DNA from: an uncultured Eubacterium sp. | GTDB lineage: Bacteria; Bacillota; Clostridia; Lachnospirales; Lachnospiraceae | NCBI GenBank assembly: GCA_947088865.1 | Contig: CAMUHY010000012.1 | Span: forward strand, 37,347 to 101,346 | Direction of reading: 5' to 3' | Length of the DNA stretch: 64,000 bases | Shown here: in pieces, positions 26,828 to 48,883 of the stretch | Numbering within the stretch: position 1 is the first letter of the stretch | How the letters are laid out: every line of letters starts with the position of its first letter | Translations under genes and position numbers: made by a program | Notes under the pieces: generated by a model | Seen by the model: the letters and a program-made list of their open reading frames with translations, nothing else | The model's database searches: none | What the model was told of the DNA's origin: nothing

Positions 26828-27319
26828 TTACTCAATTAATTCTGAACTTCCAGTAAAACCCATCTCAACTTGAACTGTAACCTTATTTGTTGTTTCAACT
26901 GTTTGGTCACTTTGTGTCAACAATGTTGTTTCTGGTGATAAATCCGTTGTTTCATAACTTGTTGTTTTTTCTAGCATAGTCGTTTCTTCGGAAGGATTTA
27001 GCTTGGTCGTGTCAAATTTTTCTGTCTCTAATGAACTTTCTATATTATCATGTTCTAAAATTAATTTTCCTGAATTTGAAATTTTGTCTGTAAGACGACT
27101 TCTTTCTGTATTGGGAGTGCTAGATTTATATACTTTATTATTATCTGCTTCATTTTGCTGCCGAATACTTTCAATTGCTTTACGTTCTGTTGCGCCAGAT
27201 ACCTCTCCAATCACCTTTTTAATATCCAGCAAAAAAAATAATGCAATAGCAATCAAAAAGAAAATACCTGCAATGATATATGATATTAAGGAAATGGTTT
27301 GTAATAATTCAATTGACAT
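26828..27319 (-). CDS. Single-pass membrane protein with repeated ETT motifs; likely kinase substrate
   Basis: After one membrane helix (about 8-32) the 163-residue protein has a disordered, Thr/Glu/Ser-rich tail. ETT occurs four times near its end: ETTML (112), ETTDL (123), ETTLL (130) and ETTNK (142). Two ETTVL motifs occur in the FHA protein encoded three genes upstream. In GarA/OdhI-type proteins an ETT motif is the threonine phosphorylated by PknB-like kinases and bound by FHA domains, so these repeats look like phosphorylation sites. The start follows GAAGGAGATAATAAAA and overlaps the kinase gene end by 11 bp. The ETT reading is an inference. Confidence 0.75.
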   Translation of the reverse strand: MSIELLQTISLISYIIAGIFFLIAIALFFLLDIKKVIGEVSGATERKAIESIRQQNEADNNKVYKSSTPNTERSRLTDKISNSGKLILEHDNIESSLETEKFDTTKLNPSEETTMLEKTTSYETTDLSPETTLLTQSDQTVETTNKVTVQVEMGFTGSSELIE

Positions 27320-29813: not shown

Positions 29814-31232
29814 TCAACATAATTTAAATTCAAAATCCTCATTTCCAAGTCTTATTTTGTCACCATTTGTTATTTGAACTTCAACACTGCTTTGAATCAT
29901 ATTTCCATTAATAAATGTATGATTTGTAGAATTTGTATCCCTAATAAAATATGTATCATCTCTAGTAATAATATCTGCATGACTTCTACTTACAGCAGTA
30001 TTATCACTGACAAAATAATCAACATAACTCTTTTCTTTCCCAATACGAAATATTGGTTTATTTAATACAATTTTTTCATTGTTTTTCATACGAATTAAAC
30101 ATGCTTCTATATTTCGTTTTTGTTGAAAATTTCCATTTAAAACCGTTGTTTCACCAAATTTTTCCTTGCTAAGGACTGTTGTCTCTCCAAAATTTGTTGG
30201 TTGAACGGTTGGCTGAATATTTGGCACAATCTCTATATTAGGCTGTGTCTTTTTATTCGGATTTGCATCTGTTTCAAACTGTTGAACATTCGATTGAGTA
30301 TCCATACCTGTTTGTCCGGGAATCGCAAAATCCTTCTTATTTGATTTTTGTTTTTCAGCAGCAGTTATTGAATTTTTCTTTTTATTTTCTATTTTTTGCT
30401 GTCTTTTTTCATCTTTTTGCTGCTGATATAGTTCTTTATTTTCTTTATTATGATTTCTTAAAAATCCTAACATGCCAATTTTCTTTTTATTTTCATTTAA
30501 TTCCTGTTTTTCATCTTGAAAAATCTTATTTTGTTCCGATTGTTCCGTTTGTACAGATATTTGAGACAGCTCACTATCTTGAACTGCTGATTGAATATTT
30601 GTGTTTTGCAAAGGGGGTTCTGTAGTGTTTTGTACACTATATTGCTCCCTAACAGGATTGGCAGATTCACTTTTAACGGACTCATTTTTAATTTCATCAA
30701 GAATCTTTTTAAAATCAATCAATGAAAGCATCGAAGAACGGTTTAAAAAATTAATAATTTTTGCCACATAATCACAATTTTCGGTCTGGTCAAACTGTGT
30801 TGTAAACATAATATTTTTAAAAAACAACCCCCAATCATTTGATGCCATTTCTGCACTATAAATTGGCAGACAGATAAGAAAAGCTTCACACGTTGAAACA
30901 TCAGCAAAAATATAATCCATATCAAGTAAAATCGTATTCAAATCAATCATATAATCTTCTGCTGAAAGAAGCCCATCAACAATGCTATGAAATATTCCTA
31001 TAAGTCTTTTCTTGTTTACCGTTCCACTAAAAAATTGTTTAACAGAAATTTTTGCCGATATATTATACTTTATAAATTTTTCTGTATCCATTTGTGTAAA
31101 TAAAGCAGTGGCAAACCCTAATATTTTATTATTTGTAAGCATACCTAAACTCATAGAATCAATACTATCATTTTCACTAATTTGATAAACAAGATAAGTA
31201 TTTATACCTTGATTTTCATATGTAAAATTCAT
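29814..31232 (-). CDS. FHA-domain protein with N-terminal DUF6382-like domain and ETTVL motifs
   Basis: Residues 1-190 resemble the N-terminal DUF6382 domain of clostridial FHA proteins. A long Gln/Lys-rich disordered linker follows. Two tandem ETTVL motifs stand at 350-354 and 361-365, and a C-terminal FHA domain at about 377-470 has the phospho-Thr loop SRSHADI and FING. The ETT-FHA arrangement is that of GarA/OdhI-type switches, where the phosphorylated motif folds onto its own FHA domain or others. No membrane helix is present. RBS AAAGGAGGAGACAA gives the ATG. It stands between the pilus genes and the phosphatase, so it may tie kinase signalling to pilus assembly. Confidence 0.88.
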   Translation of the reverse strand: MNFTYENQGINTYLVYQISENDSIDSMSLGMLTNNKILGFATALFTQMDTEKFIKYNISAKISVKQFFSGTVNKKRLIGIFHSIVDGLLSAEDYMIDLNTILLDMDYIFADVSTCEAFLICLPIYSAEMASNDWGLFFKNIMFTTQFDQTENCDYVAKIINFLNRSSMLSLIDFKKILDEIKNESVKSESANPVREQYSVQNTTEPPLQNTNIQSAVQDSELSQISVQTEQSEQNKIFQDEKQELNENKKKIGMLGFLRNHNKENKELYQQQKDEKRQQKIENKKKNSITAAEKQKSNKKDFAIPGQTGMDTQSNVQQFETDANPNKKTQPNIEIVPNIQPTVQPTNFGETTVLSKEKFGETTVLNGNFQQKRNIEACLIRMKNNEKIVLNKPIFRIGKEKSYVDYFVSDNTAVSRSHADIITRDDTYFIRDTNSTNHTFINGNMIQSSVEVQITNGDKIRLGNEDFEFKLC

Positions 31233-31252: not shown

Positions 31253-31840
31253 TTATTTATCTTCTACCGATTCTTGATATCCGTTATCATCTGCTATTTT
31301 CTTAAAAGCTTTTGTCTTTGCAGACTTTGATAAAGTTACTGTTCTTTCACCAAAAAAAGAAAATGGCAATTTTACTTTATACTGGACATTAATAATAATA
31401 TCTCCACCTGAAACAGAAGAATACGTGAAATCTATCCCATCCAATCCTTTTTCGACTCCTATCTCTTTAAGCAATTCATCTGCCAAATCAAAATTATCAG
31501 CAATAGAATATACAAAAGTTTTTTTCACAATTTTATAAAAATTAGTATCTTTATCACCTAAGCTTGCATATCCATCATCTACTTCAGAATAGCCATCCAC
31601 CCCTAAAAGTTCAGCAAATTTTATTAATTTACTTAATAAATCTGCTGAACCACTTTTTGAAATAGTTTCTCTATAATATGATTCAATAGCTAAAGACTGA
31701 CTGACTTGTAATGTTGCATGTGCTACTATACTCTGTGCCTTATATACTGTCGAAAAACTAAAGATGGTAACAACAATAAACATAAAAGCAGTTAACGCTA
31801 TCGAAGCCTCAATTGTTAATGACCCCTTTTTTGTGTTCAC
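31253..31840 (-). CDS. TadE-like minor pilin, GTG start
   Basis: The N-terminus GSLTIEASIALTAFMFIVVT is the TadE class: a Gly before a 22-residue hydrophobic helix with Glu after about four residues. The remainder is a soluble pilin-like domain of about 155 residues. The start is GTG, six bases after AAGGAGG; an upstream in-frame ATG lies inside the preceding gene and has no ribosome site. It follows the large DUF5702 gene by 11 bp. TadE/TadF-like pseudopilins are processed by the prepilin peptidase and needed for Flp pilus assembly. Confidence 0.85.
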   Translation of the reverse strand: MNTKKGSLTIEASIALTAFMFIVVTIFSFSTVYKAQSIVAHATLQVSQSLAIESYYRETISKSGSADLLSKLIKFAELLGVDGYSEVDDGYASLGDKDTNFYKIVKKTFVYSIADNFDLADELLKEIGVEKGLDGIDFTYSSVSGGDIIINVQYKVKLPFSFFGERTVTLSKSAKTKAFKKIADDNGYQESVEDK

Positions 31841-31851
31841 ATTATACCTCC

Positions 31852-34800
31852 TTAATATCCAACATACTTCACACAATTAACCTTAAAACCTCTTCCATTT
31901 AAAGTATTATTACTTAATGAAAGCACTGGTAAAATTGAGTTAAATGAGCCTTCTGCTTGACATCTTACATATGTGTGAAGATTCTTAAGTTCAAAACTTG
32001 TCCCCTTAGAATACTTTTTGTATCTCATTTCCATTTGGATTAAATCTGCCACTCGTATCGTTTTAGTTTGATTTGGAGTAAAGAATAAGAAAAACCATAG
32101 GTAATTTTCATACTTCATCTTGAACAATCCTTTTACTTCAAGAAGTTGCCCTGTAACATAATCAACTTTCATTGCTGCGTGAGAAAGTTCTTGCTCTTTT
32201 CCTTTCGTTTCATCAATATCATCAAAAGCTACACAAATCTGTTCAATATTATCCATTAATGTTTGCGGAGACAAAATAATTTCCTCCTTAATTAGCGGAA
32301 CCTCCATATTTGATACAAGCATATTCATGTCAATATTGGATTCCAAATAAACCCAAAGTATAAATACAAACGGAGCAACAATATTACATGAACTAATTAA
32401 TTTCATTGCTATTTCATCATTTAGAACGCCGAAAATATTATTTAATGCCCGAATTGCAAAAGTTGACCAGAAACAGTGTTGCTGATTTTCTTTTTCACTA
32501 TAAGATCCACCTATAACATACTCAACCTGTGCTCCCGAAAATGTTTGAACTTGTTTTGAATTATCAGGAAAATATGTTCTTGGCTCGCTTGTGCATCCAC
32601 TAATTTCGTTATTATGTTTATTACCATCTGTATCTGTTGTTCGATTTGGAAATTTCTCCACAATATATTGGTTAAGCAGGAAGTTTTCACCAAGTGAACT
32701 AATCATAATCTGAATTGCTTCTTCAATATGTTGTGCAACAAAAACTAAATCATTTATAATTTCTACTAAAGTAGGTACCAATTCTAACAGTTGAAATACC
32801 GTTGAAATAAAACCCCAGCTTGTACTGCCAATTAATCCGCCTGTTGTTTGGCTTGTGCTTAACTTAGTAAAATTATTTACCAGTTTTGTTATTCTATTTG
32901 AAATCTCTGCTGACAATTCGGCTTCTTCAATTCGAATATTAGGGTCAACAATATTAATATCATTGACATATCCGCTGCCCAACATTTGTTTAGCTTCTTC
33001 TAACATTGCAGAAATATCAGCAATATCATTACCATTAGAACTTTCTGTTGTTCCTGCACCACCATTAATTTTGCTAGGAAGAATATCAGTAGTAGAAGAA
33101 TTAAGATTTACAACACAATCCCAATTATATATACTTGGAAATGGCTGCATAACTTTAATCAGCTTTCCCATTGCCTTGAAAATATCAAGAAGCTCAGACA
33201 TTCCTTCAAGTACATTTACTGCGGCCAATTCTATACAATAATTTGTAACTTTTGATTTAGTCATGTAGTAACTACTATCATGCAACAAATCACCTGTATT
33301 GAATTCACTATCAAAATTATAAGAATCTGTAATGCTGTCTGCACTCAATCCATTCAATTTATTTCGCTGTTCATTTAAAAAAGCAATTCCATTATTAGGT
33401 TTTTGTTCCTCTCCTATAATAAATTGTGCCTTAATCTCAGTAAAAATGTCAGGCTCTGTATCTTTATCTACTGAATGAAAATTTTTGTTCGCTTCGTCAA
33501 TCTTCTTAAGCGCTTCACTTGCTTTATCCAAACAAGATGATACTTTGATTATCGAAGATTTATAACTACTCAGTTCTCCAGCCACAACACCAATTACTTC
33601 GAGTAAAGAAGCCTTTTTATCATCTATTTTAGTATTGTAGGAAGAAATATTATTGTTATATGTAATCCATGCCTGATTTTTTTGGTTCCATGCAGATAAT
33701 TCTGCTTCTGCAGTAGTGTAGGCAACCTTTTTTTGTTGCATACTGCTTTGCAAAGATGTTACTTTAGCAGACAATGATGATATAATTGTTGCCAATTCAC
33801 TGTCTTTGAATGAACTAAACTTATTTTCCAAACCAAGAATAGAAGAGATTTCATCATTTATAACATCAAAAAATTTTTGTCTTGTACTATTTTCAGTAAG
33901 ATTTAACTTTTTAAGTTCATCTTCTGTAATTTCTTTATTAAGAATGTCGGAAATTTTATTGGTCGAATCAACAATCCCATCATTATTACAATAATCCAAT
34001 TCATCAGCAGTCTCTAAAAATCTTAATATTAAATCTGCCATTTCATATGCTGTTTTTGCATTTTGATAAGCAGTATTTAATGCAGTAACATCAGCAGTTG
34101 GCTTAGGACCAGGATTTGGCGGCTGCGAATTTGCTTTCATATAATTAACCTTATTATTAACTGCATCCTTAAAGGCATTATAAGCAACAATATATGAAGG
34201 ATTATGTGCAGGCCAATCTTTATCGCTGAATAATCCTTCCACAGCTTCCCAGCCTTTACCTATCCAATCATTTAGTATCTCACCAATATCTTCTTCGCCA
34301 CCAGAATTAATTGTTAACTGCAACTGTTGAACATCTTTATAAAGACAATACAAAACCTTTATTGCTTCAGCAATATCAGAAATTGAGTCGCATATTGTAA
34401 GCATATTTTTAAGACCTGGTACTGCTTTTTCAATATTTTTCTTAAGTTCCTTAATCATTTTGTCAACATCAAACATATCAGAAGCAATATTCAAAGGAGT
34501 ACGATATTTCTCGTACTCTAATAGTTGCCTTTTTAAAACTTGGTAATTTGCAAGATCATATTTAAGCTCGTACTGACCAGATGTAATAGTATATAGTTGA
34601 GAAATATTATTTGCGCTGTAAACACCAGAATCGGTTGCATCAGAATTAAACAGCAGATAATTTAGAAACACATCTGAAGATATAGTCTCTGAATCTATGC
34701 CATATAATCCAAATCTACTCTCTAAATCAGAATCAAAACATGCTAACAAAGATACTGCTGAATTAATACACGACTCCTCTAACTGCTGCCTTGCTTCTTG

Positions 34801-34923
34801 ATAACGCCCAGATTCAACAAGTAAGGCGCTTAACGATAAAATTCCTGACATTAAAAAAGCTAAGAAAATAGAAACAGAGCCTTTTGCAAGTTTATTGAGT
34901 TTTCCTCTCATTCCCTTTTTCAT
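31852..34923 (-). CDS. DUF5702-type large pseudopilin (TadG-like), 1,023 residues
   Basis: A basic N-terminus and one helix (SVSIFLAFLMSGILSLSALL) are followed by LVESGRYQEARQQLEESC and LACFDSDLESRFGLYGID, the hallmark start of clostridial DUF5702 proteins. The rest is a long, mostly helical extracellular region with coiled-coil stretches (about 270-480), Pro- and Gly-rich loops and a C-terminal beta region (YVRCQAEGSFNSILPVLSL). TadG-like proteins anchor Tad pili in other bacteria, and that role is inferred here from order between the two TadE genes. The ATG follows AAAGGATAATACATT. Confidence 0.85.
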   Translation of the reverse strand: MKKGMRGKLNKLAKGSVSIFLAFLMSGILSLSALLVESGRYQEARQQLEESCINSAVSLLACFDSDLESRFGLYGIDSETISSDVFLNYLLFNSDATDSGVYSANNISQLYTITSGQYELKYDLANYQVLKRQLLEYEKYRTPLNIASDMFDVDKMIKELKKNIEKAVPGLKNMLTICDSISDIAEAIKVLYCLYKDVQQLQLTINSGGEEDIGEILNDWIGKGWEAVEGLFSDKDWPAHNPSYIVAYNAFKDAVNNKVNYMKANSQPPNPGPKPTADVTALNTAYQNAKTAYEMADLILRFLETADELDYCNNDGIVDSTNKISDILNKEITEDELKKLNLTENSTRQKFFDVINDEISSILGLENKFSSFKDSELATIISSLSAKVTSLQSSMQQKKVAYTTAEAELSAWNQKNQAWITYNNNISSYNTKIDDKKASLLEVIGVVAGELSSYKSSIIKVSSCLDKASEALKKIDEANKNFHSVDKDTEPDIFTEIKAQFIIGEEQKPNNGIAFLNEQRNKLNGLSADSITDSYNFDSEFNTGDLLHDSSYYMTKSKVTNYCIELAAVNVLEGMSELLDIFKAMGKLIKVMQPFPSIYNWDCVVNLNSSTTDILPSKINGGAGTTESSNGNDIADISAMLEEAKQMLGSGYVNDINIVDPNIRIEEAELSAEISNRITKLVNNFTKLSTSQTTGGLIGSTSWGFISTVFQLLELVPTLVEIINDLVFVAQHIEEAIQIMISSLGENFLLNQYIVEKFPNRTTDTDGNKHNNEISGCTSEPRTYFPDNSKQVQTFSGAQVEYVIGGSYSEKENQQHCFWSTFAIRALNNIFGVLNDEIAMKLISSCNIVAPFVFILWVYLESNIDMNMLVSNMEVPLIKEEIILSPQTLMDNIEQICVAFDDIDETKGKEQELSHAAMKVDYVTGQLLEVKGLFKMKYENYLWFFLFFTPNQTKTIRVADLIQMEMRYKKYSKGTSFELKNLHTYVRCQAEGSFNSILPVLSLSNNTLNGRGFKVNCVKYVGY

Positions 34924-34929
34924 AATGTA

Positions 34930-35559
34930 TTATCCTTTCAATGAACTTAAATCAAAAATGTTAATAAATTTTATAAAATGATCCAAAAACTTATCCAGTT
35001 TTGATAAAACGGTTTCTTTAACAGTCCCAACAGTATTAAAATAATCTAACAAATCTAAACAATCGGCTCTACCTTCCGCAACATAAGAAGTTTTATTGTC
35101 TCCACCCCAAATTGCAGTTAAAGGCATTTCATATTTGGCTTCAATTCTCACAATTATCTGATGTTGAATAATGGTACCCTGTTTTCGAACTACTTTAACT
35201 TCCACTTTGGGACTTTCAATTTCTGACAAAGACCTTTTCTTCAAACTATATAATGTAAACCATGTTGCCTTTCTCTGTGCAGAATCATCTTGAGAAGAAA
35301 AAACAAAATTGGAAACATATCGGTAAAGTTCTGTTTTATAAAACTCACTATCATCCATATAACCATATAGAGGATCTCTATAGGTAGAAGAATATACATT
35401 TGCTACATTTATAGCAGCCTCCGTAGCAACAGAATCCATAAGATTTCTGTTGTACAACATTATTCCAAGATTGATAAGAACAGCAACCATTACAACCACT
35501 ATAGTCATAACAATTGATGCCTCAATTATCACATTGCCTTTTTCGTTGCAATCTTTCAT
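34930..35559 (-). CDS. TadE-like minor pilin
   Basis: The 209-residue protein begins with a short charged segment and GNVIIEASIVMTIVVVMVAV, a TadE-type prepilin signal with Glu five residues into the helix. The extracellular part contains MDSVATEAAINVANVYSS and a beta-rich section, as in TadE/TadF proteins. It probably forms the minor pilin complex with the other TadE protein and the DUF5702 protein. RBS AGAAGGTAGAGATTT is clear. Six bases separate its end from the next gene. Confidence 0.87.
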   Translation of the reverse strand: MKDCNEKGNVIIEASIVMTIVVVMVAVLINLGIMLYNRNLMDSVATEAAINVANVYSSTYRDPLYGYMDDSEFYKTELYRYVSNFVFSSQDDSAQRKATWFTLYSLKKRSLSEIESPKVEVKVVRKQGTIIQHQIIVRIEAKYEMPLTAIWGGDNKTSYVAEGRADCLDLLDYFNTVGTVKETVLSKLDKFLDHFIKFINIFDLSSLKG

Positions 35560-35600: not shown

Positions 35601-36911
35601 TTATCTGTTATAATACCTTGATAAATAAAACCAATAATTATCATTTTTTACAAAGCAATTTCCTTTACTATTAAAATAATTAACATCATTAAATTCACCA
35701 ACAATTACTTTTTCATTATTTGTATTAATAAATGACCAAAATTCACCTTCTTTGATGCCTGCCAAACCATTAGAAAATGACTTTGCACACTCATATTGTG
35801 GTTCAATTACAACTTCACCTGAAGTGTTGATAAATCCCCATTTTCCATCTTTTTCTACGGCAAGCAATTCGTTTTCATTTATAAATGCATCCGAATTATC
35901 AAAACAATAGTCGGAAATCTGTTTTAATTTGCAATCATACAAATTGTACTTGCCGTCCGTTTTAGCAATAATTATGCCACTTTGAGAACAATCATTGGAC
36001 TGACTTATTTTTATATCTTCAAAATAAGTGTCGCCAATCTGTTTTCCTTCAGTGTCAATCAAAAACCAGCCTTTGTCAGTTTTAACTGGAGCAACACCAT
36101 TTGCAAATCTGCCAGCAAATTGATATGAACCAAAAAGTTTTTTACCAGTCAAATCATAATAAGAATATACATCACTAATCTTACATGCAATTTGAGCGTT
36201 GCCAACACCAGTTGCCTCTGTTATTTCATTCGGAAAATAGGCTTGTCTAATTGAATCAAAAGAAATTAAGTATGTATATTCATTATCCTTTACTAAAGCA
36301 TAACCATTAAGCATTGGAGTAGCATAATCGAATTTCTTTCCATTTATAGAACTCATATTTGAATTGTACATGCTATACTTCTCATTTTTAATTAAATAAG
36401 AATCTTCAAAAGTAAGCAATACATTTTCAAAAGTAGAAAAATTTGTTTCACACAAATACCTAATATTATCTCGAATCTTATTGACAGTTTCTGTACTAAT
36501 GTTAAACTTTTCAGCTTGGTATATGGCTAAAACACAATCTTCTATTTTGTTAAAATCATAAAAATACTGAACAACAACATCATATGCTTTAGGTTCTTTA
36601 CGATATTTCTCTAAAATCTCAAATAAGAAATTTGAATATTTATAATAAGAATCAAATTCTCCATTCTCCATTGCTTGTTTATAATTTCTTGCCATTTCAA
36701 GACGCAACTCTAAAGTATCTTTTTCTGTTAATGCTTGGTCATACATCAACATAGCTTTTTGACATAAATTATTTTCATTATATGCTCTTGCTTTATTTAG
36801 CAAATCCTTATATTCATTATCATTATTTAATATTGTTGGAACGACCATAATAACAGCCAATATGGTAAATATTAAAACTAATGCAATGATTAACTGTTTT
36901 TTTAATTTCAT
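35601..36911 (-). CDS. Membrane-anchored WG-repeat protein
   Basis: One N-terminal helix (about 7-29) anchors a 400-residue extracellular protein. Residues 50-180 are helical with TPR-like character (YNENNLCQKAMLMYDQALTE). From about 190 on, WG repeats follow: KWGFINTSGEVVIEPQYE is the clearest, with AKSFSNGLAGIKEGEFWSF and GWFLIDTEGKQIGD as diverged copies. WG repeats form propeller-like binding surfaces. It is not a core Tad component and is an operon-specific extra. The second ATG is chosen because GAGG lies 7 nt before it. Confidence 0.82.
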   Translation of the reverse strand: MKLKKQLIIALVLIFTILAVIMVVPTILNNDNEYKDLLNKARAYNENNLCQKAMLMYDQALTEKDTLELRLEMARNYKQAMENGEFDSYYKYSNFLFEILEKYRKEPKAYDVVVQYFYDFNKIEDCVLAIYQAEKFNISTETVNKIRDNIRYLCETNFSTFENVLLTFEDSYLIKNEKYSMYNSNMSSINGKKFDYATPMLNGYALVKDNEYTYLISFDSIRQAYFPNEITEATGVGNAQIACKISDVYSYYDLTGKKLFGSYQFAGRFANGVAPVKTDKGWFLIDTEGKQIGDTYFEDIKISQSNDCSQSGIIIAKTDGKYNLYDCKLKQISDYCFDNSDAFINENELLAVEKDGKWGFINTSGEVVIEPQYECAKSFSNGLAGIKEGEFWSFINTNNEKVIVGEFNDVNYFNSKGNCFVKNDNYWFYLSRYYNR

Positions 36912-36920
36912 ATTCATACC

Positions 36921-37601
36921 TCAATAACAAGATAAAATAATCGCTATAACATAGCCCCCAAAAATGAAAGGTCCAAATGGAATGGAATCTTTTCTGTTCT
37001 TTTTCTTTATTATTATCAAAATAAACGAGATGATTGTCGAAATAAGCAAACAAAAAATAAGCGTTGAATAAGTACAAATTGCACCAGACATGAATCCAAT
37101 CACACCAAACAGCTTAACATCACCAAAACCAATAGCGCCCCTAAATAAAACAGACGCTATAAATAAAATACCAAATCCAATACCAAATCCAAGAAGATCA
37201 CTGAACAACTGAGGAACAAAAATATCATTATAAAACAACCATTCCATAACATATATTACAACTCTAACAATCAAGCCAATCATTATGAGAAAGTTTGGAA
37301 TTATAGTCTTCTTTAAATCTACTACTGCTGCTGCTGCAAGAATGCCCATTAAAACTATAAGCTTTATCATATTAAGAATATTTGAAACTTGATTTACAAG
37401 CAAAAGTGAACTTCCTAATAACACAACAGACACAATGTTCATAACAATATAAATATAAGTCTTTATATTCAGTTTTATCAAAGAAAATGAGCTACTGTCT
37501 TGTTCTATGTAAACATTACTAAATATATCAAGTTTTTTAAAATACAATATAATAAGAAATATTTCCATCACAGAAAGACTTAAAGCTATTATATAATCCA
37601 T
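36921..37601 (-). CDS. tadV: Prepilin peptidase, A24 family (TadV/CpaA type)
   Basis: This 227-residue membrane protein has about seven hydrophobic segments and both catalytic aspartates of the family: one in VDLKKTIIPN (near residue 95) and one in GFGDVKLFG (near 161). It lacks the N-terminal methylase domain, as TadV/CpaA do. It should cut the Flp pilin and the TadE-like proteins. The ATG is preceded by AGGAGAAATTGATT; a TTG two codons upstream is too close to that site. A strong hairpin separates it from the pilin gene. Confidence 0.92.
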   Translation of the reverse strand: MDYIIALSLSVMEIFLIILYFKKLDIFSNVYIEQDSSSFSLIKLNIKTYIYIVMNIVSVVLLGSSLLLVNQVSNILNMIKLIVLMGILAAAAVVDLKKTIIPNFLIMIGLIVRVVIYVMEWLFYNDIFVPQLFSDLLGFGIGFGILFIASVLFRGAIGFGDVKLFGVIGFMSGAICTYSTLIFCLLISTIISFILIIIKKKNRKDSIPFGPFIFGGYVIAIILSCY

Positions 37602-37625
37602 AATCAATTTCTCCTAACTGCTATG

Positions 37626-37671: not shown

Positions 37672-37908
37672 TTAACTATACTTACCATTGTAATCCTGAT
37701 TGTTATCCTGCCAAATACTATCCCAAATAGAGTCAAACAACTTGACAATCTGATTCCTAAATACGATTGCCAATGCCAATGCTATTGCAAGAATGACAAT
37801 TATTACAATAATATTGACTTCTCCTTTTTCATCTCTAAAGAACTTTGCAACCTTATTCCTAAATACGATTGCATGAGATTGTGCCATGACATAAAGATTT
37901 GTTAACAT
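37672..37908 (-). CDS. flp: Flp/Flp1-family type IVb pilin (major pilin candidate)
   Basis: The 78-residue protein has the Flp layout: a charged leader ending in FRDEKG, then a helix EVNIIVIIVILAIALALAIV and a short C-terminal tail ending in NGKYS. Cleavage by the prepilin peptidase is expected after Gly29; Glu is at +1 instead of +5. The hexapeptide AIVFRN occurs at 13-18 and 47-52, encoded by an 18-bp exact direct repeat, so the leader seems partly duplicated from the helix end. It lies between tadC and the peptidase, as in Clostridial Tad loci. Confidence 0.88.
   Translation of the reverse strand: MLTNLYVMAQSHAIVFRNKVAKFFRDEKGEVNIIVIIVILAIALALAIVFRNQIVKLFDSIWDSIWQDNNQDYNGKYS
37753..37872 (-). 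repeat. 18-bp direct repeats inside the pilin gene
   Basis: ATTCCTAAATACGATTGC (plus strand) occurs exactly at 37753-37770 and 37855-37872, 102 bp apart and in the same reading frame. Recombination between them would remove 34 codons including the cleavage site and most of the helix. Confidence 0.85.
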
Positions 37909-37936: not shown

Positions 37937-38809
37937 TTAAATACCAATATTAGTCATTATAGGTCCCATTACAATAATAAGAATTCCTATAAATATAACC
38001 ATTATTGGTATTAATAGCTTACTTGTAGCAAGATCACCCTGCTGTAAAACCTTTTGCTTTTTCATTTCCCAAAGTTCATCTGATTGATTTTTTAGTGAAA
38101 AAGCTAAATCCTTACTGCCTTTCTCAAGCCCCTGTACAATAAATGATGTGAATTTCTTGATTTCAGGTGTTGCACAACGTAGAGAAAACGCATACAGTGC
38201 AGCACTTTCTGACATACCATTATCCATATCTTCACTTACTTTTTGCATCTGATCATACAATTCACCAGTAGATGAGTAGGCTACTTCTGTCCATGCTTCC
38301 CGCAACATCATACCTGCATTAACTAACAAAGCAATTGTAGAAACAACATTTGGAAAATCTTTTAAATAAATTGCACTTTTTTTCTTAATCTTTATAGATA
38401 TCATAGTGTTAAAATAATAATACATTATACCTACTATAACTAAACCTAATCCAAAAATAATAAGGCTATCAACCCCTTGCGCAAAGCACGCGAAAATTCC
38501 ACTTGTTACAAGAATAAGCCAACAAATTGAAAATTTTTGAGCGTATAAAACTCGAATATAAAACTCGCTGTATTTTTTGCCATAGACAATAATAACTTGT
38601 TGCCGTAAATCATTAACAAATTTGCTTTTATACTCTAATCTCAATTTGTCCGCTAAAACAAAACCAACACCATAAATCTCTTTTATAGGAAATTCCTTAT
38701 CATCTAATATATTAATATAATCATTGTACTGGCTAGATTTTAAAAGAAAAATAACAAATAATAAATTTGCCAATATTGTTATAACTAAAATAATTATACT
38801 TGAAATCAT
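37937..38809 (-). CDS. tadC: Tad pilus platform protein TadC (T2SSF domain)
   Basis: The 290-residue protein has hydrophobic segments at about 4-24, 95-115, 118-138 and 262-285, with a T2SSF cytoplasmic domain at about 155-260 (FPNVVSTIALLVNAGMMLRE and KKQKVLQQGDLATSKLLIP). It forms the inner-membrane platform together with TadB. The gene follows tadB by 11 bp, with the site AGGAGGTGTAGAG. Length and topology are normal for the family. Confidence 0.92.
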   Translation of the reverse strand: MISSIIILVITILANLLFVIFLLKSSQYNDYINILDDKEFPIKEIYGVGFVLADKLRLEYKSKFVNDLRQQVIIVYGKKYSEFYIRVLYAQKFSICWLILVTSGIFACFAQGVDSLIIFGLGLVIVGIMYYYFNTMISIKIKKKSAIYLKDFPNVVSTIALLVNAGMMLREAWTEVAYSSTGELYDQMQKVSEDMDNGMSESAALYAFSLRCATPEIKKFTSFIVQGLEKGSKDLAFSLKNQSDELWEMKKQKVLQQGDLATSKLLIPIMVIFIGILIIVMGPIMTNIGI

Positions 38810-38820
38810 CTCTACACCTC

Positions 38821-39675
38821 CTAAACATCAATTTTAAGAATATATTGTCCTAAGAAGTATGCAAAAATGAATAAACTTATGCCAATAGTTGTAAACAACA
38901 ATCCTGAAGGAGTAGTAAAATTAGCTGCAAAATCCCCACCCATCATCTTTATCATTCCAACAATAACAATTGGCATAACAAGCATAATATTCTGTTCGTT
39001 TTTATTAGATATAACCTTTGTTTGAATCTCCATTTCCAATTGTGTTTTTGTACTAAGAATTTCATGTGTATTACGAACTATATCCTTAATGTTTCCACCT
39101 TTACGATAAGCTGTTTCAAATACTTTTCCGAAATCAGATACATCCTTGATACCACTTCGCTCTCCAAAACTTGCAAGCATGTCTTCAATTGATATATTAT
39201 TATTAAAACCATCAATAATCTGATTTACTTCATTTACAATAAAGGCATCTTCTGGATATTGAACTAATAAATCAGTTTTTGCTGACAAAAAGGCGGATGG
39301 AACATTTTGACCAGCATCAAGTGATGCAGAAAGAGAGTCTAATAAATCAATAAACTGCTTATGTAACATCTTCTTGCGTTTATTAAGTATCTGATTCTGT
39401 TTTATTGGAAGAAAGAGCTTAATACCAATACTTCCACATATGACCATAATAATTGTATTCATTATATAAGTAATAAGTGTTGGTGAACCATATGAGTCTT
39501 TCCCTATACCACCATAGAAAATATAAGCAACAGCAGTACCCACAATAAAAGCAATAACCCCCCATATAATTTTTTCTCTTTTTTTTAAGTAACAGACTTT
39601 GTAATTTAACACCTCCTGATTTGTTGCAGAATATAAAATTTGTGGTTCTATTAGCTTTTTTTCTTTCTTAGTCAT
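38821..39675 (-). CDS. tadB: Tad pilus platform protein TadB (T2SSF domain)
   Basis: The 284-residue protein has membrane segments at about 35-53, 64-88, 229-250 and 262-280 and the T2SSF core with QFIDLLDSLSASLDAGQNV and FGERSGIKDVSDFGKVFETA. It is the partner of TadC. The ribosome site AAAGGGGAATAATT lies in the tail of a decayed small gene upstream. The N-terminus is a little longer than usual. Confidence 0.92.
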   Translation of the reverse strand: MTKKEKKLIEPQILYSATNQEVLNYKVCYLKKREKIIWGVIAFIVGTAVAYIFYGGIGKDSYGSPTLITYIMNTIIMVICGSIGIKLFLPIKQNQILNKRKKMLHKQFIDLLDSLSASLDAGQNVPSAFLSAKTDLLVQYPEDAFIVNEVNQIIDGFNNNISIEDMLASFGERSGIKDVSDFGKVFETAYRKGGNIKDIVRNTHEILSTKTQLEMEIQTKVISNKNEQNIMLVMPIVIVGMIKMMGGDFAANFTTPSGLLFTTIGISLFIFAYFLGQYILKIDV

Positions 39676-40117: not shown

Positions 40118-41374
40118 TCAAAAAACTTCTTTATAACCTGAAAGAATCAATTTATGTGTATTTTGCATTGGATTAGCCGTTCGATTTAACGACCCTGAAA
40201 CTTTCTCAAGCGTACTCTTTTCATTTTCTTCAAAAACATAAAGAGGATTAAGTATAATACATCCTGATTCATTTTCTTTTCCATATTCATATCCAACCAC
40301 TTCACAAATCTCCATTGTTTTTCTTGACTTATCACGAAGTCTTGAAAGATGAATAATAATATCAACTGCAGAAGCAATCTGTTGTCTTATTGCCTCTAAA
40401 GGAAGTCCTGCTGCACCTTGCAGAACCATTGTTTCCAAACGACTTAACATATCTTGTGTTGAGTTAGCATGACCTGTTGATAGAGAACCATCATGTCCCG
40501 TATTCATTGCTTGAAGCATATCTAATGCCTCTCCGCCACGAACTTCCCCTACTACAATACGCTCTGGTCTCATACGCAAAGAAGATTTTATTAAATCTCG
40601 AATAGTAATCTGACCTACACCCGATGCATTGGCATTTCTTGTTTCCAGTCTAACAAGATTTTCAATCTTTGTAATCTGCAATTCGGCTGAATCTTCAATC
40701 GTAATAACACGTTCATCCTTTGGAATATAATTAGAAAGAGCATTTAAAAAAGTAGTCTTGCCACTTCCTGTTCCGCCGCTGATAAAAATGTTATATTTAG
40801 CTTTGACAAGAATTTCAAGTTTATCTGCAATTTCCTGAGTTATTGAACCATACTCTATAAGTTTTTCAATTGTCATTGGTGTTTTAGAAAATTTACGAAT
40901 TGTAAGTGTTGGCCCACATAATGCAATTGGCGGAAGTACAACATTTACACGTGAATCATCAGGAAGTCTTGTATCACAAATAGGATTTGCCTGATTAACT
41001 TCTCGACCAGCAAGTCCAACAATTCTTTGAATGATATCTTCTAATCGTCTTTGACTTTCAAATTGCTTATCAAGTTTAAATAAACGACCATTTTGTTCAA
41101 TAAAAATATTTTTGTGACCATTAATCATTACCTCTGTAATCGTATCATCACTTATAATGGCATCAAGAAGTCCAAACCCCCGAATAGAACTATATACTTG
41201 CTGAACTATTGAAACTTTTTGTTCAATAGAACAATATTTATCACCTATTTTTTGAAAAACAATCTCCTCAATTTTTCTTTCTAATTCTTCATCTTCCATC
41301 TTACTTAATGGCAAATTTTCTGTTACATATTTTTTTATCTCAACAACAAATTGTTGTTCCTGCTGAAAATCCAT
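40118..41374 (-). CDS. cpaF: Tad pilus assembly ATPase CpaF/TadA
   Basis: This 418-residue VirB11/GspE-type ATPase has an N-terminal domain ending near 150, Walker A GGTGSGKTT at 200-208, an aspartate box (VITIEDSAEL), Walker B-like IVVGEVRGGEA near 273-283 and the histidine box TGHDGSLSTGHANS. All catalytic motifs are intact. It powers pilin polymerisation. RBS GGAGGATTAATAA precedes the ATG; tadZ lies 16 bp upstream. Confidence 0.95.
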   Translation of the reverse strand: MDFQQEQQFVVEIKKYVTENLPLSKMEDEELERKIEEIVFQKIGDKYCSIEQKVSIVQQVYSSIRGFGLLDAIISDDTITEVMINGHKNIFIEQNGRLFKLDKQFESQRRLEDIIQRIVGLAGREVNQANPICDTRLPDDSRVNVVLPPIALCGPTLTIRKFSKTPMTIEKLIEYGSITQEIADKLEILVKAKYNIFISGGTGSGKTTFLNALSNYIPKDERVITIEDSAELQITKIENLVRLETRNANASGVGQITIRDLIKSSLRMRPERIVVGEVRGGEALDMLQAMNTGHDGSLSTGHANSTQDMLSRLETMVLQGAAGLPLEAIRQQIASAVDIIIHLSRLRDKSRKTMEICEVVGYEYGKENESGCIILNPLYVFEENEKSTLEKVSGSLNRTANPMQNTHKLILSGYKEVF

Positions 41375-41390
41375 TTATTAATCCTCCAAT

Positions 41391-42452
41391 TTAATTCAAC
41401 TTATCAAATATAGGCATTTGACTTAATTGTTCAAGAACCTGACTTGTTGTCGCATGTTCATATCGTGGTATACCGCCAATAATATTTATTCCAATATCTG
41501 ATAAAACTTTTCCAGTTTTACTGCTGAACTTATTATACATTAAATATAACCTGTTAATTAATGGTGAATCTTCATTTTGCTCTACAGTTGCAAGTGCTTC
41601 ATAGGTACGAATAATTTTATTATTTGATGTCTCAGAACCATCTCCAAGCCAAACAACAGCATGTGTTTTATGAAGAATTTTTAAAAATTCTTTATCTATT
41701 TTAAAATCCATATCTAATATAATATAAGAATATAATCCTGAATGTTTTAATTCTGAAATTAAACAAATAATATCATCTGCACTAAGCTCTAACATATCAA
41801 GAGCAATTTTAGATTGAGAATAAAAATATACCCCTCGTGAATCCTGTTTTACACAGCTTGCAAGTTTTATTGAAAGATTTGTCTTTTTACTCTTTACTGC
41901 AAAAATAATGTCACTCATATCAAATTGACCTTCTGCAAAAAAAAATGTATCTGAGGAACCAAATCTTTCTAAATTAAGATATAATGTTTTTTTTCCTTGA
42001 GTTGCATAATGCAAAGAACATGCTGCTGCAACAGAGGAATTTCCAGTTCCGCCGCTTGGTGAAGTAAATACAATTATCTTACAGGAATCATCTCCAAATT
42101 TAAGACCTGATACATTTCCTGCAACTTCAGAATACAAACTAAGAATCTGTTTATATATAAGGTCAACTTTTTGAAATTTACAAATAACTCTTTGCCCATT
42201 ATATGTATCTACATCTATAGAATCTACAAAATAGGCAAATCCACATTTTGAAGGTAATATATCTATATCTATATCAAAAACAGTACTTGCAATAAAAACA
42301 TCTACTCTTATATTATTTAATGAGGAAAGTGCCACTTCAATATTTGTAAAAGAATATATCTCTAACTTATCAGCATATTTCATACTAAATGCAGCTACAA
42401 TTCGATTTAAATAATTCTTATCTTTTTCTAATAATGCTAGCTTGATTTTCAT
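41391..42452 (-). CDS. tadZ: TadZ/CpaE-like localisation ATPase with altered Walker A
   Basis: The N-terminal 110 residues form a receiver-like atypical domain, and the rest is a ParA/MinD-type fold (IIVFTSPSGGTGNSSVAAAC). The deviant Walker A reads SGGTGNSS: the lysine that contacts phosphate is replaced by Asn138, and the signature lysine of ParA proteins is absent too. Some TadZ proteins have atypical P-loops and still bind nucleotide, so this is unusual but not necessarily dead. It is the first gene of the long operon. GAGGATTTGAT precedes its ATG. Confidence 0.87.
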   Translation of the reverse strand: MKIKLALLEKDKNYLNRIVAAFSMKYADKLEIYSFTNIEVALSSLNNIRVDVFIASTVFDIDIDILPSKCGFAYFVDSIDVDTYNGQRVICKFQKVDLIYKQILSLYSEVAGNVSGLKFGDDSCKIIVFTSPSGGTGNSSVAAACSLHYATQGKKTLYLNLERFGSSDTFFFAEGQFDMSDIIFAVKSKKTNLSIKLASCVKQDSRGVYFYSQSKIALDMLELSADDIICLISELKHSGLYSYIILDMDFKIDKEFLKILHKTHAVVWLGDGSETSNNKIIRTYEALATVEQNEDSPLINRLYLMYNKFSSKTGKVLSDIGINIIGGIPRYEHATTSQVLEQLSQMPIFDKLN

Positions 42453-42816
42453 ATCAAATCCTCATTTACCTTATTTTTCGTATATTATTTACTTTATATA
42501 TTATAATAAAACTTCATATTTTATTTATAATTAAATTTAAATATATTAAAAATTTTATTGAATAAATTTTATTTTTTAGGTTAATCTATTTAACAAATTA
42601 ACTATTTTATAAATACTACAAAATAGTTATAAGGGATATTTTTTAAATTTTTTTAAATTGAACATTATATTTAGAAAAATGACTATAGATTTTATTAAAT
42701 TAAAGAACATTCTAATATTAATTTCGTATGTATTATTTTACTTAAATTTTTAAGAAATATATTCTCATATGTATTTTTCCAAACATTTGTTTAATTTACT
42801 ATAAAAATAACTTTTT
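42453..42816 (-). promoter_or_regulatory. Leader region of the Tad operon
   Basis: This 364-bp AT-rich stretch has no ORF. It holds a weak hairpin (AACTATTTT/AAAATAGTT, 42600-42628) and several TA-rich tracts, but no promoter with a convincing -35 toward tadZ. The present sequence therefore gives no strong start of its own for the 24-kb operon. Confidence 0.4.
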
Positions 42817-42843
42817 TTGCGTAGAACTATTAATTCTACACAA
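42817..42843 (+). repeat. Left recombination site
   Basis: TTGCGTAGAA-CTATTAA-TTCTACACAA: two nearly symmetric 10-bp arms (one mismatch) around a 7-bp spacer, the layout of tyrosine recombinase core sites. The first 20 bases recur inverted at the right end. Confidence 0.75.
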
Positions 42844-42847
42844 AATT

Positions 42848-42880
42848 AAAGGAAATCCTTATAATATAAGAATTTCCTTT
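42848..42880 (-). terminator. Hairpin after the integrase gene
   Basis: AAAGGAAAT and ATTTCCTTT, with CTTATA/TATAAG pairing further in, form a long AT-rich stem 36 bp after the integrase stop, followed by AATTTTG. It should stop integrase transcripts before the Tad operon. Confidence 0.6.
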
Positions 42881-42915
42881 GGCTTTATGACCATTTATTT
42901 GACCACTATTAAAAT

Positions 42916-44052
42916 TTATGACAAAATAAAAGAAAGCTTTTCTAATTGTGTTCTTTTTAATTCTATAGACGAATGAACATATGTGTTTAATGTTATTGAT
43001 ACATTAGAATGTCCTAATATTTCACTTAATGATTTTACATCTACTCCCGCCTCTATACATCTTGTAGCAAATGTATGCCGTAAAATATGATAATTAATAG
43101 AAGATATCCCACATAAATCAAGAATACGGTGAAATCTATATTCATACGTACGAGGACTCATAAATTTATTTGTATTTGAAACAACATAAATAGATTGAAT
43201 AGATGGCTGCATGGAAACAAGTATAGGCATTAAATTTGATGAAATTGGAATATCCCTTAATGATGATTTTGTTTTAGGTTTATCAACAACAAGCATTGTA
43301 ACAAAAGAACCTTCCACATTTCTATTTCTAACTCTTACAATAGTTGACCGAACATGAATGACTTTTTTATCAAGGTCAATATCATTCCACTTTAAGGCAC
43401 ATACTTCTCCAATACGAAGACCTGTATATAATGATAATAAAATTCCTAATCGAGTACTATCCATTTTTCTAATTAATTCAATTTCTAATTTATGTTGTTC
43501 TAATTCTTCCAAAACCTTTAATTCTTTTTTTTGTATTGTTGGTTTATGAATTGGATTTCTTATAGGTTTGCACATCTGTTCACTTGCCGCATAATCTAAT
43601 ACTTCTGTAATTATTAACATTATACTGCGAACATAGGAAGGAGATAATCCTCCCTGTTTATCAATTCTTCCATTTGTAAGTTTTTTATCCATATAATTAT
43701 TTAAAACAACTGGCGTTATACTCGATAATTTCATTTTTCCAAGTTCTGGAAGAATATGTTTTTCTATTAAACTTTCATATTTTAATTCTGTTGAACCTTT
43801 ATGTTTAATTTTATTTGCTTCATGCCAAAGTAAAATGGCTTCTTTTAATGTCCATTCTTTGATAATATCATTATTGGTAATTTCATTAATGTCTTTTAAT
43901 TTACATGCAGATAATTTTGATTTCACCTCTGTATATGTTTTTCCATATACAGAGGTGTATATAGTTTTACCATAATTATTTACTCCATTTTTATATCTAC
44001 CTTCCCAACGACCATCTTTTCGTTTATGAATATGCTCGCCTCTTCTTGGCAT
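42916..44052 (-). CDS. Tyrosine recombinase/integrase, intact
   Basis: The 378-residue protein has an N-terminal arm-binding domain (MPRRGEHIHKRKDGRWEGRY), a SAM-like core-binding domain at about 68-165 and a catalytic domain with all residues: Arg213 in TGLRIGE, Lys near 260, H322-ILR325-H, His348 in LGHSNV and Tyr358 in NTYVH. It resembles integrases of Tn916/phage type, but no xis or other mobile genes are near. AGAAAGGAGATATT precedes the ATG. Together with the flanking inverted sites it most likely acts as a DNA invertase for its own segment. Confidence 0.92.
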   Translation of the reverse strand: MPRRGEHIHKRKDGRWEGRYKNGVNNYGKTIYTSVYGKTYTEVKSKLSACKLKDINEITNNDIIKEWTLKEAILLWHEANKIKHKGSTELKYESLIEKHILPELGKMKLSSITPVVLNNYMDKKLTNGRIDKQGGLSPSYVRSIMLIITEVLDYAASEQMCKPIRNPIHKPTIQKKELKVLEELEQHKLEIELIRKMDSTRLGILLSLYTGLRIGEVCALKWNDIDLDKKVIHVRSTIVRVRNRNVEGSFVTMLVVDKPKTKSSLRDIPISSNLMPILVSMQPSIQSIYVVSNTNKFMSPRTYEYRFHRILDLCGISSINYHILRHTFATRCIEAGVDVKSLSEILGHSNVSITLNTYVHSSIELKRTQLEKLSFILS

Positions 44053-44120
44053 ATAATATCTCCTTTCTTGTCAAATAAAAATTTATTATGACCCTATTTT
44101 GACACCAATAAATTAAAAAT

Positions 44121-44148
44121 GTTTATATTTTTAAACAAAAATATAAAC
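44121..44148. repeat. Perfect hairpin upstream of the integrase gene
   Basis: GTTTATATTTTT and AAAAATATAAAC (12-bp arms, 4-nt loop AAAC) stand about 70 bp before the integrase start, between it and the outward promoter. It could be a regulator site or insulate the two divergent transcripts. Confidence 0.5.
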
Positions 44149-44198
44149 CATATTGAATAAAATATTTCTTTTATTCCCTTAATAAACAATTTACATTG

Positions 44199-44226
44199 TT
44201 GACTTTTAAAGAAAAAATGATATAAT
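44199..44226 (+). promoter_or_regulatory. Strong promoter inside the invertible segment, pointing right
   Basis: TTGACT, 16-bp spacer, TATAAT; transcription would start near 44233 and cross the right site. In this orientation there is no gene downstream, only a terminator. After inversion the -10 box would lie at about 42869-42874 facing tadZ, with a leader near 410 nt. Confidence 0.65.
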
Positions 44227-44258
44227 GAATGAAATTATTAAACTTAATTCTGTGTTAT

Positions 44259-44278
44259 GAATTAATAGTTCTACGCAA
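44259..44278 (-). repeat. Right recombination site
   Basis: Exact 20-bp inverted copy of the left site including the CTATTAA spacer; its inner arm (TTCATAACACA on the minus strand) is diverged. Similarity to the left end extends about 12 bp further inward as TTAATT(C/T)TGTGT. Confidence 0.75.
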
Positions 44279-44671
44279 TATTGATCTATTTTTATATAAA
44301 ATAAATTTACTCATCATTTAATTTTTCCATCTTATTAATAAAATAATTTACATTTAATATTAATATAATATTCAAATTGATTTTACGCAAAAAATGACAA
44401 GTAAGCTTATAAACTCTACTCGTCATTTTTACAACCAAAATATTTTACATAATCATTGAATTATTTTTATAAATTCAATAACATATATATTAATTTATTA
44501 TATACCACTTATTTATATTATGCAACAATATCCATTTACACTTAATCAGTTTATTTTTTATTTTTGCTATCAAATTATTTTTAAACAAATAAATCATAGA
44601 AATCATTTATAATAAATTATCTTATAGTTAAGTGGATAGGATATTCGCAATTCCCTACGCTGCTTGCTCAT
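44279..44671. other. Gene-free AT-rich region right of the invertible segment
   Basis: No ORF, RNA gene or promoter is evident apart from the terminator at 44390-44430. It looks like buffer sequence that absorbs transcription from the outward promoter. Confidence 0.5.
44390..44430 (+). terminator. Bidirectional terminator facing the outward promoter
   Basis: AAAAATGACAAGTA and TACTCGTCATTTTT form a 14-bp stem with one mismatch; T-runs follow on either strand. It would end transcripts from the promoter at 44199 after about 200 nt. Confidence 0.7.
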
Positions 44672-44743
44672 AACCTCATCAAGGAAGTTTCCACTTATAC
44701 CTTTACAATATTGAAGTGGAGGGGGGACTTCCTTGATGAGGTT
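44672..44743. repeat. 17-bp inverted repeat at the end of the MBL gene
   Basis: AACCTCATCAAGGAAGT and its exact complement are 38 bp apart, with a second pair CCACTT/AAGTGG inside and a C6 run. The right arm overlaps the stop codon of the MBL gene. The left flank (TTCGCAATTCCCTACGCTGC) resembles the repeats near 12.5 kb. Confidence 0.7.
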
Positions 44744-45620
44744 AAACTGCTTTCCAAATCAACTTATTATTTTCAAAGCAGGCATCTACTTTTTTTGTAT
44801 CTTTCAGCCATGCAAGATAGGAACGAACCGTACTTCCCACTAAAACATACTGTTCAAAATTCATTTTCAACCCAAAATCATCAAACAATTTTTGCAAAAT
44901 TGTTTCAAAGCAAATAGATTCTTTGCAAAGTCCTATTATATGGTTTGCAATCTCATTTACCTTACAAATATTATATTCCGCAAGTTCTGCAATATTGTCT
45001 GTTACAGGAGCATGAGCAGGTATAAATATCTTTGCTTTTAAAGTCTTTATTCTCTCAAGTGTGCTTAAATATTTTTCGACATCATAAAGAAACACAATTT
45101 TATATTTATCAAGCGTTTCCTTGCTTGACAGACAATCCGCCAAATAGACAACATTATCTGGTATACGAAAACCTACCATATCAAAAAAATGTCCTTGCAA
45201 TGGTATAATTTCTATCTCTTTTGGAAAACTGTCGTCTAAAAAACTTTCAATTTTACTTTCAGCCGCAAGCAAAAACTTATGACGCAGTTCTTTGCAAGGA
45301 TACCCGCCATATAAAAAAGAAGGTTCCAAAATCGGATGCGCTGTAAAACATTTTTCAATGCCGCTTGAATACACTTTACAGCCTGTCTGCTGCTGCAAAT
45401 AATGATTTCCTCCAATATGGTCTGCATGAGAATGCGTATTAAGAATACCCAAAAGCTGCCAGTGATGTTCATCTAATATTTTACGAATTTTGCGTCCCGC
45501 ATCTTTATCACTTCCACTATCTATTAAATAAACAGCATTTTCAGTTGCCTGATAGACTCCAATTTTTGCAGGACAATCTATGTAATAACTTTTTTCACCA
45601 ACCTGATATAATTCATACAT
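44742..45620 (-). CDS. Metallo-beta-lactamase-fold hydrolase
   Basis: The 292-residue protein carries the metal motif NTHSHADHIGG near residue 65, further ligands in PLQGHFFDM and VVYLADC, and a closing PAHAP. It resembles the glyoxalase II/CdnR-like branch with a C-terminal helical domain (about 210-290). Substrate unknown. The start is the ATG after AAGGTGATAGCT; a GTG three codons upstream overlaps that site. It is separated from the histidine kinase by a terminator and forms its own unit. Confidence 0.85.
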   Translation of the reverse strand: MYELYQVGEKSYYIDCPAKIGVYQATENAVYLIDSGSDKDAGRKIRKILDEHHWQLLGILNTHSHADHIGGNHYLQQQTGCKVYSSGIEKCFTAHPILEPSFLYGGYPCKELRHKFLLAAESKIESFLDDSFPKEIEIIPLQGHFFDMVGFRIPDNVVYLADCLSSKETLDKYKIVFLYDVEKYLSTLERIKTLKAKIFIPAHAPVTDNIAELAEYNICKVNEIANHIIGLCKESICFETILQKLFDDFGLKMNFEQYVLVGSTVRSYLAWLKDTKKVDACFENNKLIWKAV

Positions 45621-45724
45621 AGCTATCACCTTCTTTAACTATAAAATATTTTTTATCACTATTTTTCATAGTCTATCCTTTTACTTGTTATAAATCAAAA
45701 AAGCTATCCTATTAAGAAAATCCA

Positions 45725-48865: not shown

Positions 48866-48883
48866 TTTCTGTTACCGCCATTC

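Follow-up and report, generated by a model that had tools for sequence, protein, structure and literature searches.

A candidate self-contained promoter inverton, with its own tyrosine recombinase, before a Tad pilus cluster of an uncultured Eubacterium sp.

A 64,000-nucleotide stretch of DNA from an uncultured Eubacterium sp. of the Lachnospiraceae (contig CAMUHY010000012.1, positions 37,347 to 101,346), hereafter the window, carries a 1.46-kb cassette before tadZ, the first gene of a presumed Tad pilus operon. Our analysis of this cassette and its relatives points to a self-contained promoter inverton, OFF as assembled, which very probably inverts and thereby switches the cluster. Judged by sequence, promoter cassettes of this kind, each with its own tyrosine recombinase, mark a large family in Clostridia, in which they lie before many genes, often surface genes, and face either way. 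The parts of the window cassette and its surroundings are as follows.

42817..42836, plus strand: left recombination site, TTGCGTAGAA-CTATTAA-TTC, the full palindrome being GTAGAA-CTATTAA-TTCTAC
42848..42880, minus strand: terminator-like hairpin behind the recombinase gene (scan and folding)
42916..44052, minus strand: gene for a tyrosine recombinase of 378 amino acids (aa) with a Tn1549-integrase-like fold and an N-terminal three-strand-one-helix domain (Pfam and predicted structure)
44199..44226, plus strand: outward promoter TTGACT-16-TATAAT with an extended TG before the -10 (promoter scan; conserved in relatives)
44259..44278, minus strand: right recombination site, an exact inverted copy with the same spacer (sequence comparison)
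44390..44430, plus strand: terminator-like hairpin that would stop the promoter as assembled (folding, -11.1 kcal/mol, z -5.1)

The first-pass annotation of this DNA had described identical inverted sites around an intact tyrosine recombinase, an outward near-consensus promoter reading through the right site, a terminator beyond it and the lack of a good promoter before tadZ. All of these were recovered, the promoter as a sequence feature only and the terminator as a terminator-like hairpin. The 20-bp sequence TTGCGTAGAACTATTAATTC at 42817-42836 on the plus strand is identical to that at 44259-44278 on the minus strand, and the two share the asymmetric 7-bp spacer CTATTAA. In the 3.29-Mb assembly, the exact 20-mer occurs at the cassette's two sites only; with up to three mismatches it occurs at five places, versus none for a reversed control, and two of the three extra places are the sites of a second, decayed cassette. 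A search of the same genome with the palindrome pattern gave six matches per strand versus ten for its control, hence no sites above chance beyond the two cassettes, and the exact 20-mer had no match in IMG/VR. The segment between the sites contains a single open reading frame (ORF) of at least 80 aa, the size range listed, and this encodes the recombinase.

The recombinase matches PF00589 (E 6.9e-26), and its residues R213, K260, H322, R325, H348 and Y358, which we take from family knowledge to be catalytic, show no variation in two alignments of relatives, one of 14 and one of 28 rows. Its structure model (mean predicted local distance difference test score 87, predicted template modelling score 0.67) begins with three strands and one helix, followed by helical and catalytic parts. 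The closest fold match among solved structures was the Tn1549 integrase (E 3.8e-15, 23% identity), and sequence comparison likewise placed this integrase closest. By sequence and model, the enzyme is predicted to be of the Tn916/Tn1549 kind; such an N-terminal domain has been described for the IntTn916 subgroup, where it is tied to mobility (PMC8138268). Inside the recombinase gene, near its start, 43924-43957 form a perfect inverted repeat of 14 bp around a 6-base loop, terminator-like on the plus strand.

The promoter at 44199-44226 was the best of 22 promoter hits in 42300-44760, and its -10 element lies 32 bases from the right 20-bp site (26 bases from the 25-mer used in the family promoter survey). 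Given that this AT-rich DNA yielded no more hits than its shuffles (mean 24.7), the weight of the window promoter rests on its relatives. Toward tadZ, on the minus strand of 42453-42816, a scan for sigma-70-type promoters gave no hit. The hairpin at 44390-44430 was found by folding and is not listed by a simple hairpin scan with a loop limit of 8. The hairpin behind the recombinase, absent from the first-pass annotation, is the stronger of the two, reaching -29.1 kcal/mol (z -9.1) together with the palindromic left site.

Searching 299 genomes of the family, from 298 genera, we found a homologue of the recombinase at E<=1e-60 in 51. An inverted site pair surrounds the recombinase in 40 of 61 loci (59 of the 60 non-window hits, G299 being left out, plus one same-genus locus and the window), as compared with 3 of 610 mismatched-flank pairs. 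In a collection of named genomes, the pair was detected in 58 of the best 80 loci on a longer list of relatives and in 55 of the 72 with complete flanks, versus 3 of 480 in the null; Butyricicoccus, Blautia, Agathobaculum, Eisenbergiella, Ruminococcus and Candidatus Soleaferrea are among the names of records in which it occurs. A score of 17 was chosen as cut-off for a pair after a first look at the data. Among viral relatives, the pair was present in 8 of 80, and five of these 8 have recombinases under 33% identical.

The logo derived from 95 site pairs reads TTCG(T/C)AGA(G/A)-N7-(C/T)TCT(A/G)CGAA. Among these pairs, 87 spacers are distinct, while within pairs the spacers mismatch at only 4 of 665 positions, compared with 59 of 855 in the outer arms and 147 of 855 in the inner arms. 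Because the pairs were found by similarity, these counts are biased low over the whole site, and it is the contrast between spacer and arms that matters. Such a pattern would be expected of a tyrosine recombinase that depends on overlap homology, with exchange keeping the two spacers alike. Nine of 106 paired loci were left out of the statistics, four as identical copies (L137, L149, L151 and L153) and five as doubtful viral pairs (L239, L256, L259, L263 and L267); 95 of the remaining 97 passed, L064 and L188 standing outside them. Three of the 95 are from IMG/VR (L208, L209 and L218), and at least the rows L134, L171 and L183 look mis-centred. A matrix scan with zero weight on the spacer found inverted pairs with identical spacers spanning the gene in 87 of 137 loci, direct pairs with identical spacers in three, and an inverted pair downstream of the gene in two, L190 and L093. 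In L190 (Drancourtella massiliensis), the two inverted same-spacer sites are 390 bp apart and lie downstream of the recombinase, at about 61 and 451 bases, the layout of a short inverton with its recombinase alongside; L093 is similar, with its contig cut upstream. L165 and L174 have duplicated same-spacer sites in direct orientation upstream of the recombinase.

The outward promoter is likewise a family feature. Between the 5' site and the recombinase, a promoter scoring at least 11/12 points outward in 50 of 94 loci and inward in none, the shuffle expectation being 0.55; at 10/12 or better, the counts are 73 outward and 13 inward. In the 73 loci, the -10 lies at a median of 28 bases from the site, and 59 have a promoter spacer of 17. 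The rule for calling promoters was set once the window had been viewed, the stretch was cut at 260 bases, and the control shuffled dinucleotide blocks; a first pass on 40 loci gave an agreeing result.

The first-pass annotation had read the window as the OFF state of an inverton and had proposed a search of relatives for the other orientation, and that search found it. In L064 and L138, a tad operon orthologous to that of the window (TadA 86% identical) carries the cassette the opposite way round, and the order there is TTGACA promoter, site, GGAGAG stretch and tadZ start codon, which supports the OFF-state reading. Counting all orthologous tad operons, the cassette is OFF-like in the window, L074, L127 and L131 and ON-like in L064 and L138. 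The operons with FHA and adhesin genes are OFF-like in L065 and L124 and ON-like in L083, L128, L129, L130, L132 and L133, the last counted although its pair scored 16. Within one genome, the paralogous cassettes L112 and L116, 87% identical, face homologous genes in opposite senses. The neighbouring ORFs of 96 loci (longest-ORF calls, with L064 added by hand) also favour a switch, in that both read away from the cassette in 28 and both toward it in 6, one side being missing in 10.

A second cassette in the genome of the window, at C1:283176-284023, is 80% identical to the window copy over the largest piece. Its recombinase is broken by deletions and stops, and over the first half of that gene just 209 of 574 bases still align, whereas the promoter end is the best kept (85 of 85 bases aligned, 77 identical). 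Both of its sites share one C-to-T change and have the same spacer as the window copy. The promoter reads toward the gene of a protein that is presumably secreted and has Big_2, Bsp-like and dockerin domains, an ON-like arrangement. Because the promoter end is complete and both sites keep the spacer, the single intact recombinase might, on a broader reading given below, flip this copy in trans and link Tad pili with this Ig/dockerin protein.

From the sequence, we infer catalysis, flipping within the strain, transcription, termination and piliation as follows. The recombinase would bind the two palindromic sites and exchange strands inside the 7-bp spacer and, since the spacers are identical and inverted, the product would be inversion of the 1.46-kb segment. 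When OFF, the outward promoter would run through the right site into the hairpin at 44390-44430, while the hairpin behind the recombinase would keep the recombinase transcript out of tadZ. When ON, transcription from the promoter would cross the left site and, after some 410 nt of leader, enter tadZ and the cluster of Tad, FHA, kinase and giant-protein genes. The expected outcome is a mixed population of piliated and bare cells.

Several observations weigh against this account. The pair threshold was failed by 21 of 61 homologues in the family genomes and by 22 of 80 in the named genomes; at least four of the latter (L154, L177, L179 and L195) have a diverged or more distant pair, others are cut by contig ends, and others apparently have no pair. 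A FastTree tree of 149 relatives shows a clustered, patchy distribution of the pair (present in 101, absent from 37 and 11 cut, the four loci just named being set to 'with pair' by hand), and its 25 changes led us to reject the pair as a trait of one clean clade. Only a minority of relatives have a hairpin behind the recombinase, at z<-3 in 17 of 82 (control, 2 of 95). A universal terminator at this position was accordingly rejected; at other loci, transcripts of the recombinase gene might read on into the target even when the cassette is 'OFF'. Among the 96 loci with neighbouring ORFs considered, those with two neighbours of which a single one reads away lean OFF-like, with 41 on the far side versus 11 on the promoter side. 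Orthologous targets are the better test of orientation. Even there, both orientations were seen between species, so that separate insertions could, with low probability, account for them; the L074 operon has diverged (TadZ 24%, TadA 75%), and in L065, L128, L129 and L131 a gene on the opposite side reads away as well. Finally, no strain was seen in both orientations, each species being represented by one genome, and all four of the records that share an identical cassette (L072, L149, L151 and L153) have it in one orientation. These four also have near-identical flanks, and three of the records are named Butyricicoccus, Blautia and Agathobaculum, which points to either recent transfer or shared contamination.

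Such separate insertions are at the heart of one alternative, in which the cassette is a minimal mobile element that transposes, made up of an integrase of the Tn916/Tn1549 type between terminal inverted repeats. The closest solved structure, the Tn1549 integrase, is in keeping with this, as is the second copy, in which homology to the window falls to background at both sites (identities per 10 nt of 9, 10, 9 and 9, 9, 6 inside the sites and 4, 6, 4 and 4, 2, 4 outside). Related cassettes also lie before unrelated genes, and genome G158 has four paralogous copies (L112, L114, L116 and L118), each with its own spacer. However, the segment holds a single gene of at least 80 aa, and neither an excisionase nor a transfer gene was seen. 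In Tn916, the coupling sequence at one end usually differs from that at the other, whereas the end spacers here are identical and inverted, favouring inversion. Transposition has no need of an outward promoter at a fixed distance from the site, and orthologous operons carry the cassette before their first gene in both orientations. In 4 of 14 compared pairs (L114/L118, L114/L116, L079/L167 and L140/L147), similarity passes at least one site, so that not every copy arose as a clean unit. Because of the identical inverted spacers, the conserved outward promoter and the orthologous targets facing both ways, we rank transposition alone lower and consider it improbable; mobility over evolutionary time is compatible with inversion.

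Inversion might instead control the recombinase or an antisense transcript, with a short terminated RNA made as assembled and tad served by an unseen promoter of its own. About 364 nt separate the left site from tadZ. Among 22 genomes of the window's genus, tadZ (E<=1e-30) is present in four and the recombinase (E<=1e-40) in two, and the window's genome alone has both. The other three with tadZ (G012, G014 and G015) have no detected recombinase, which makes the switch an optional part, and they must use another tadZ promoter (the best in the 420 nt upstream scores 10/12). The empty promoter scan of 42453-42816 and the promoter directly upstream of tadZ in L064 and L138 speak against this explanation, and we regard it as very unlikely. 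There is similarly little probability that the cassette is a fossil that no longer flips, for although the second copy's recombinase is broken and each genome shows a single orientation, the window's recombinase is intact with invariant catalytic residues, its sites are identical, and its promoter and hairpins are present.

The promoter inverton would, in the ON state, read into the following genes, all on the minus strand and assigned by Pfam unless stated otherwise; the last line gives the gene on its other side.

41391..42452, minus strand: tadZ (TadZ receiver), first gene of the presumed target operon
40118..41374, minus strand: tadA-type ATPase (T2SSE; the best NCBIfam model is TadA-family, under its cut-off)
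38821..39675, minus strand: tadB-like gene (T2SSF)
37937..38809, minus strand: tadC-like gene (T2SSF)
37672..37908, minus strand: 78-aa Flp-pilin-like ORF (by eye: charged stretch, GEV, then a hydrophobic segment)
36921..37607, minus strand: A24 prepilin peptidase
35601..36917, minus strand: WG-repeat protein
34930..35559, minus strand: TadE
31852..34923, minus strand: DUF5702 protein
31253..31876, minus strand: TadE-like protein (E 4.8e-4, under the Pfam cut-off)
29814..31232, minus strand: FHA/DUF6382 protein
29016..29789, minus strand: PP2C phosphatase
27309..29000, minus strand: Ser/Thr protein kinase
18319..26343, minus strand: 2674-aa protein with weak Ig-like matches, a presumed surface protein
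44742..45629, minus strand: hydrolase with a metallo-beta-lactamase fold, on the other side and reading toward the cassette (below curated cut-offs for all NCBIfam families shown, 25 of 27)

The only long internal gap in this minus-strand gene run (42452-18319) is the 442 nt between tadA and tadB, in which no terminator-like site and no promoter-like site above 9/12 were found. Beyond the hydrolase, at 45809-50182, a 1018-aa hybrid histidine kinase adjoins a periplasmic-binding-type protein.

At other loci, we assigned targets by running Pfam on the first co-directional ORF. This covered 49 of the 58 relatives in which just one neighbour reads outward, together with the target of the second copy. 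Surface and polysaccharide functions include TadZ, FHA, sortase-type pilin domains (FctA and SpaA), signal peptidase S26, an epimerase, a sugar transferase, Wzz and PglD-type proteins. Others are a NusG-type factor, LytTR response regulators, TetR, PP2C, Ser/Thr kinase, LRR, GLUG, TnpB-type zinc-ribbon proteins and helicases, and an AMP-binding enzyme, PqqD and a replication-relaxation protein fall off the surface theme; 3 of the 49 ORFs match no Pfam family. Surface genes and regulators are common among the targets in this raw tally, from which no enrichment is claimed. In L080, L092, L108 and L113, the first ORF by the cassette encodes a 450-480-aa Cas12f1-like/TnpB zinc-ribbon protein, possibly a phase-variable TnpB-like effector or regulator. 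L082 and L101 have the cassette before helicase genes (ResIII domains, joined in L082 by HA domains), which may belong to phase-controlled defence systems.

A broader reading, to which we give somewhat less than an even chance, is that these cassettes are dispersing plug-in phase switches. Integrases of the Tn916/Tn1549 type would have turned into invertases with their own promoter and a private 7-bp spacer code. The cassettes would move among surface, regulatory and polysaccharide operons that are unrelated, and divergence of the spacers would keep each insulated from the rest, as in the four copies with four spacers of G158, while the second copy in the window's genome would be flippable in trans. 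If the switch account holds, many orphan 'integrases' of Clostridia, easily taken for relics of mobile elements given the link of the arm-binding domain to mobility (PMC8138268), would become testable phase switches, with Tad pili, FHA/kinase-linked adhesin operons, sortase-type pilins, polysaccharide genes and LytTR regulators as their named neighbours. With the site logo, the promoter position and the private spacer, any such locus can be checked against read sets that already exist. Inverton searches limited to short segments, as is common, would miss 1.4-kb cassettes.

The first-pass annotation had held a recombinase within its own invertible segment beside a Tad locus to be undescribed, a claim that needs qualifying. 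Among the matches listed in our literature search, judged by titles and the starts of abstracts, there was no inverting Tad switch, and among the matches listed there was no self-contained tyrosine-recombinase cassette in Clostridia. By contrast, the layout itself marks a large family in Clostridia and is found in Hin too. In the Hin/hix flagellar switch of Salmonella, the promoter-bearing invertible segment encodes its own recombinase (PMC5903667, PMC2784873), and the cassette shares this anatomy. Hin, however, belongs to the serine recombinases (PMC11868660) and is regulated through an enhancer that Fis binds (PMC3798978). The cassette has a tyrosine recombinase (PF00589) whose fold is Tn1549-integrase-like, its spacer of 7 bp is private, and its presumed target is Tad. 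It would act as Hin does but through an unrelated enzyme, and it falls outside the Hin family.

The fim switch of E. coli (FimB/FimE) resembles the cassette in its tyrosine recombinase, promoter inversion and pilus target. The fim recombinase genes lie outside fimS, whereas the cassette's recombinase lies inside the switch and has an extra N-terminal domain. The fimS element itself measures 314 bp (PMC9993118). In C. difficile, the tyrosine recombinase RecV inverts the switches of cwpV and of flagellar genes (PMC5903667, PMC2784873), so that clostridial surface and motility genes are likewise under tyrosine-recombinase inversion; there, however, one recombinase serves several switches, and the cwpV segment is without a promoter. 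PsrA of the pneumococcal cod locus is a tyrosine recombinase encoded within its own inverting locus (PMC7096588), but it shuffles hsdS coding sequence rather than a promoter. With the Tn916/Tn1549 integrases, the recombinase shares its fold, sequence family and N-terminal three-strand-one-helix domain; unlike those elements, the cassette has no mobile-element cargo among ORFs of at least 80 aa, and its ends are an inversion pair with the same spacer.

The nearest report to the cassette among the matches listed is inverton group 139 with invertase group 35, comprising 33 invertons, 32 of them from Clostridia, with a tyrosine-type recombinase nearby and orientation changes in reads (Jin 2025, PMC11892184). 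Two examples printed there are about 255 bp long, as compared with the 1.46 kb of the cassette, and are thus too short to hold the recombinase, which lies outside. The layout of L190, with its sites 390 bp apart and outside the gene, resembles the group 139 arrangement.

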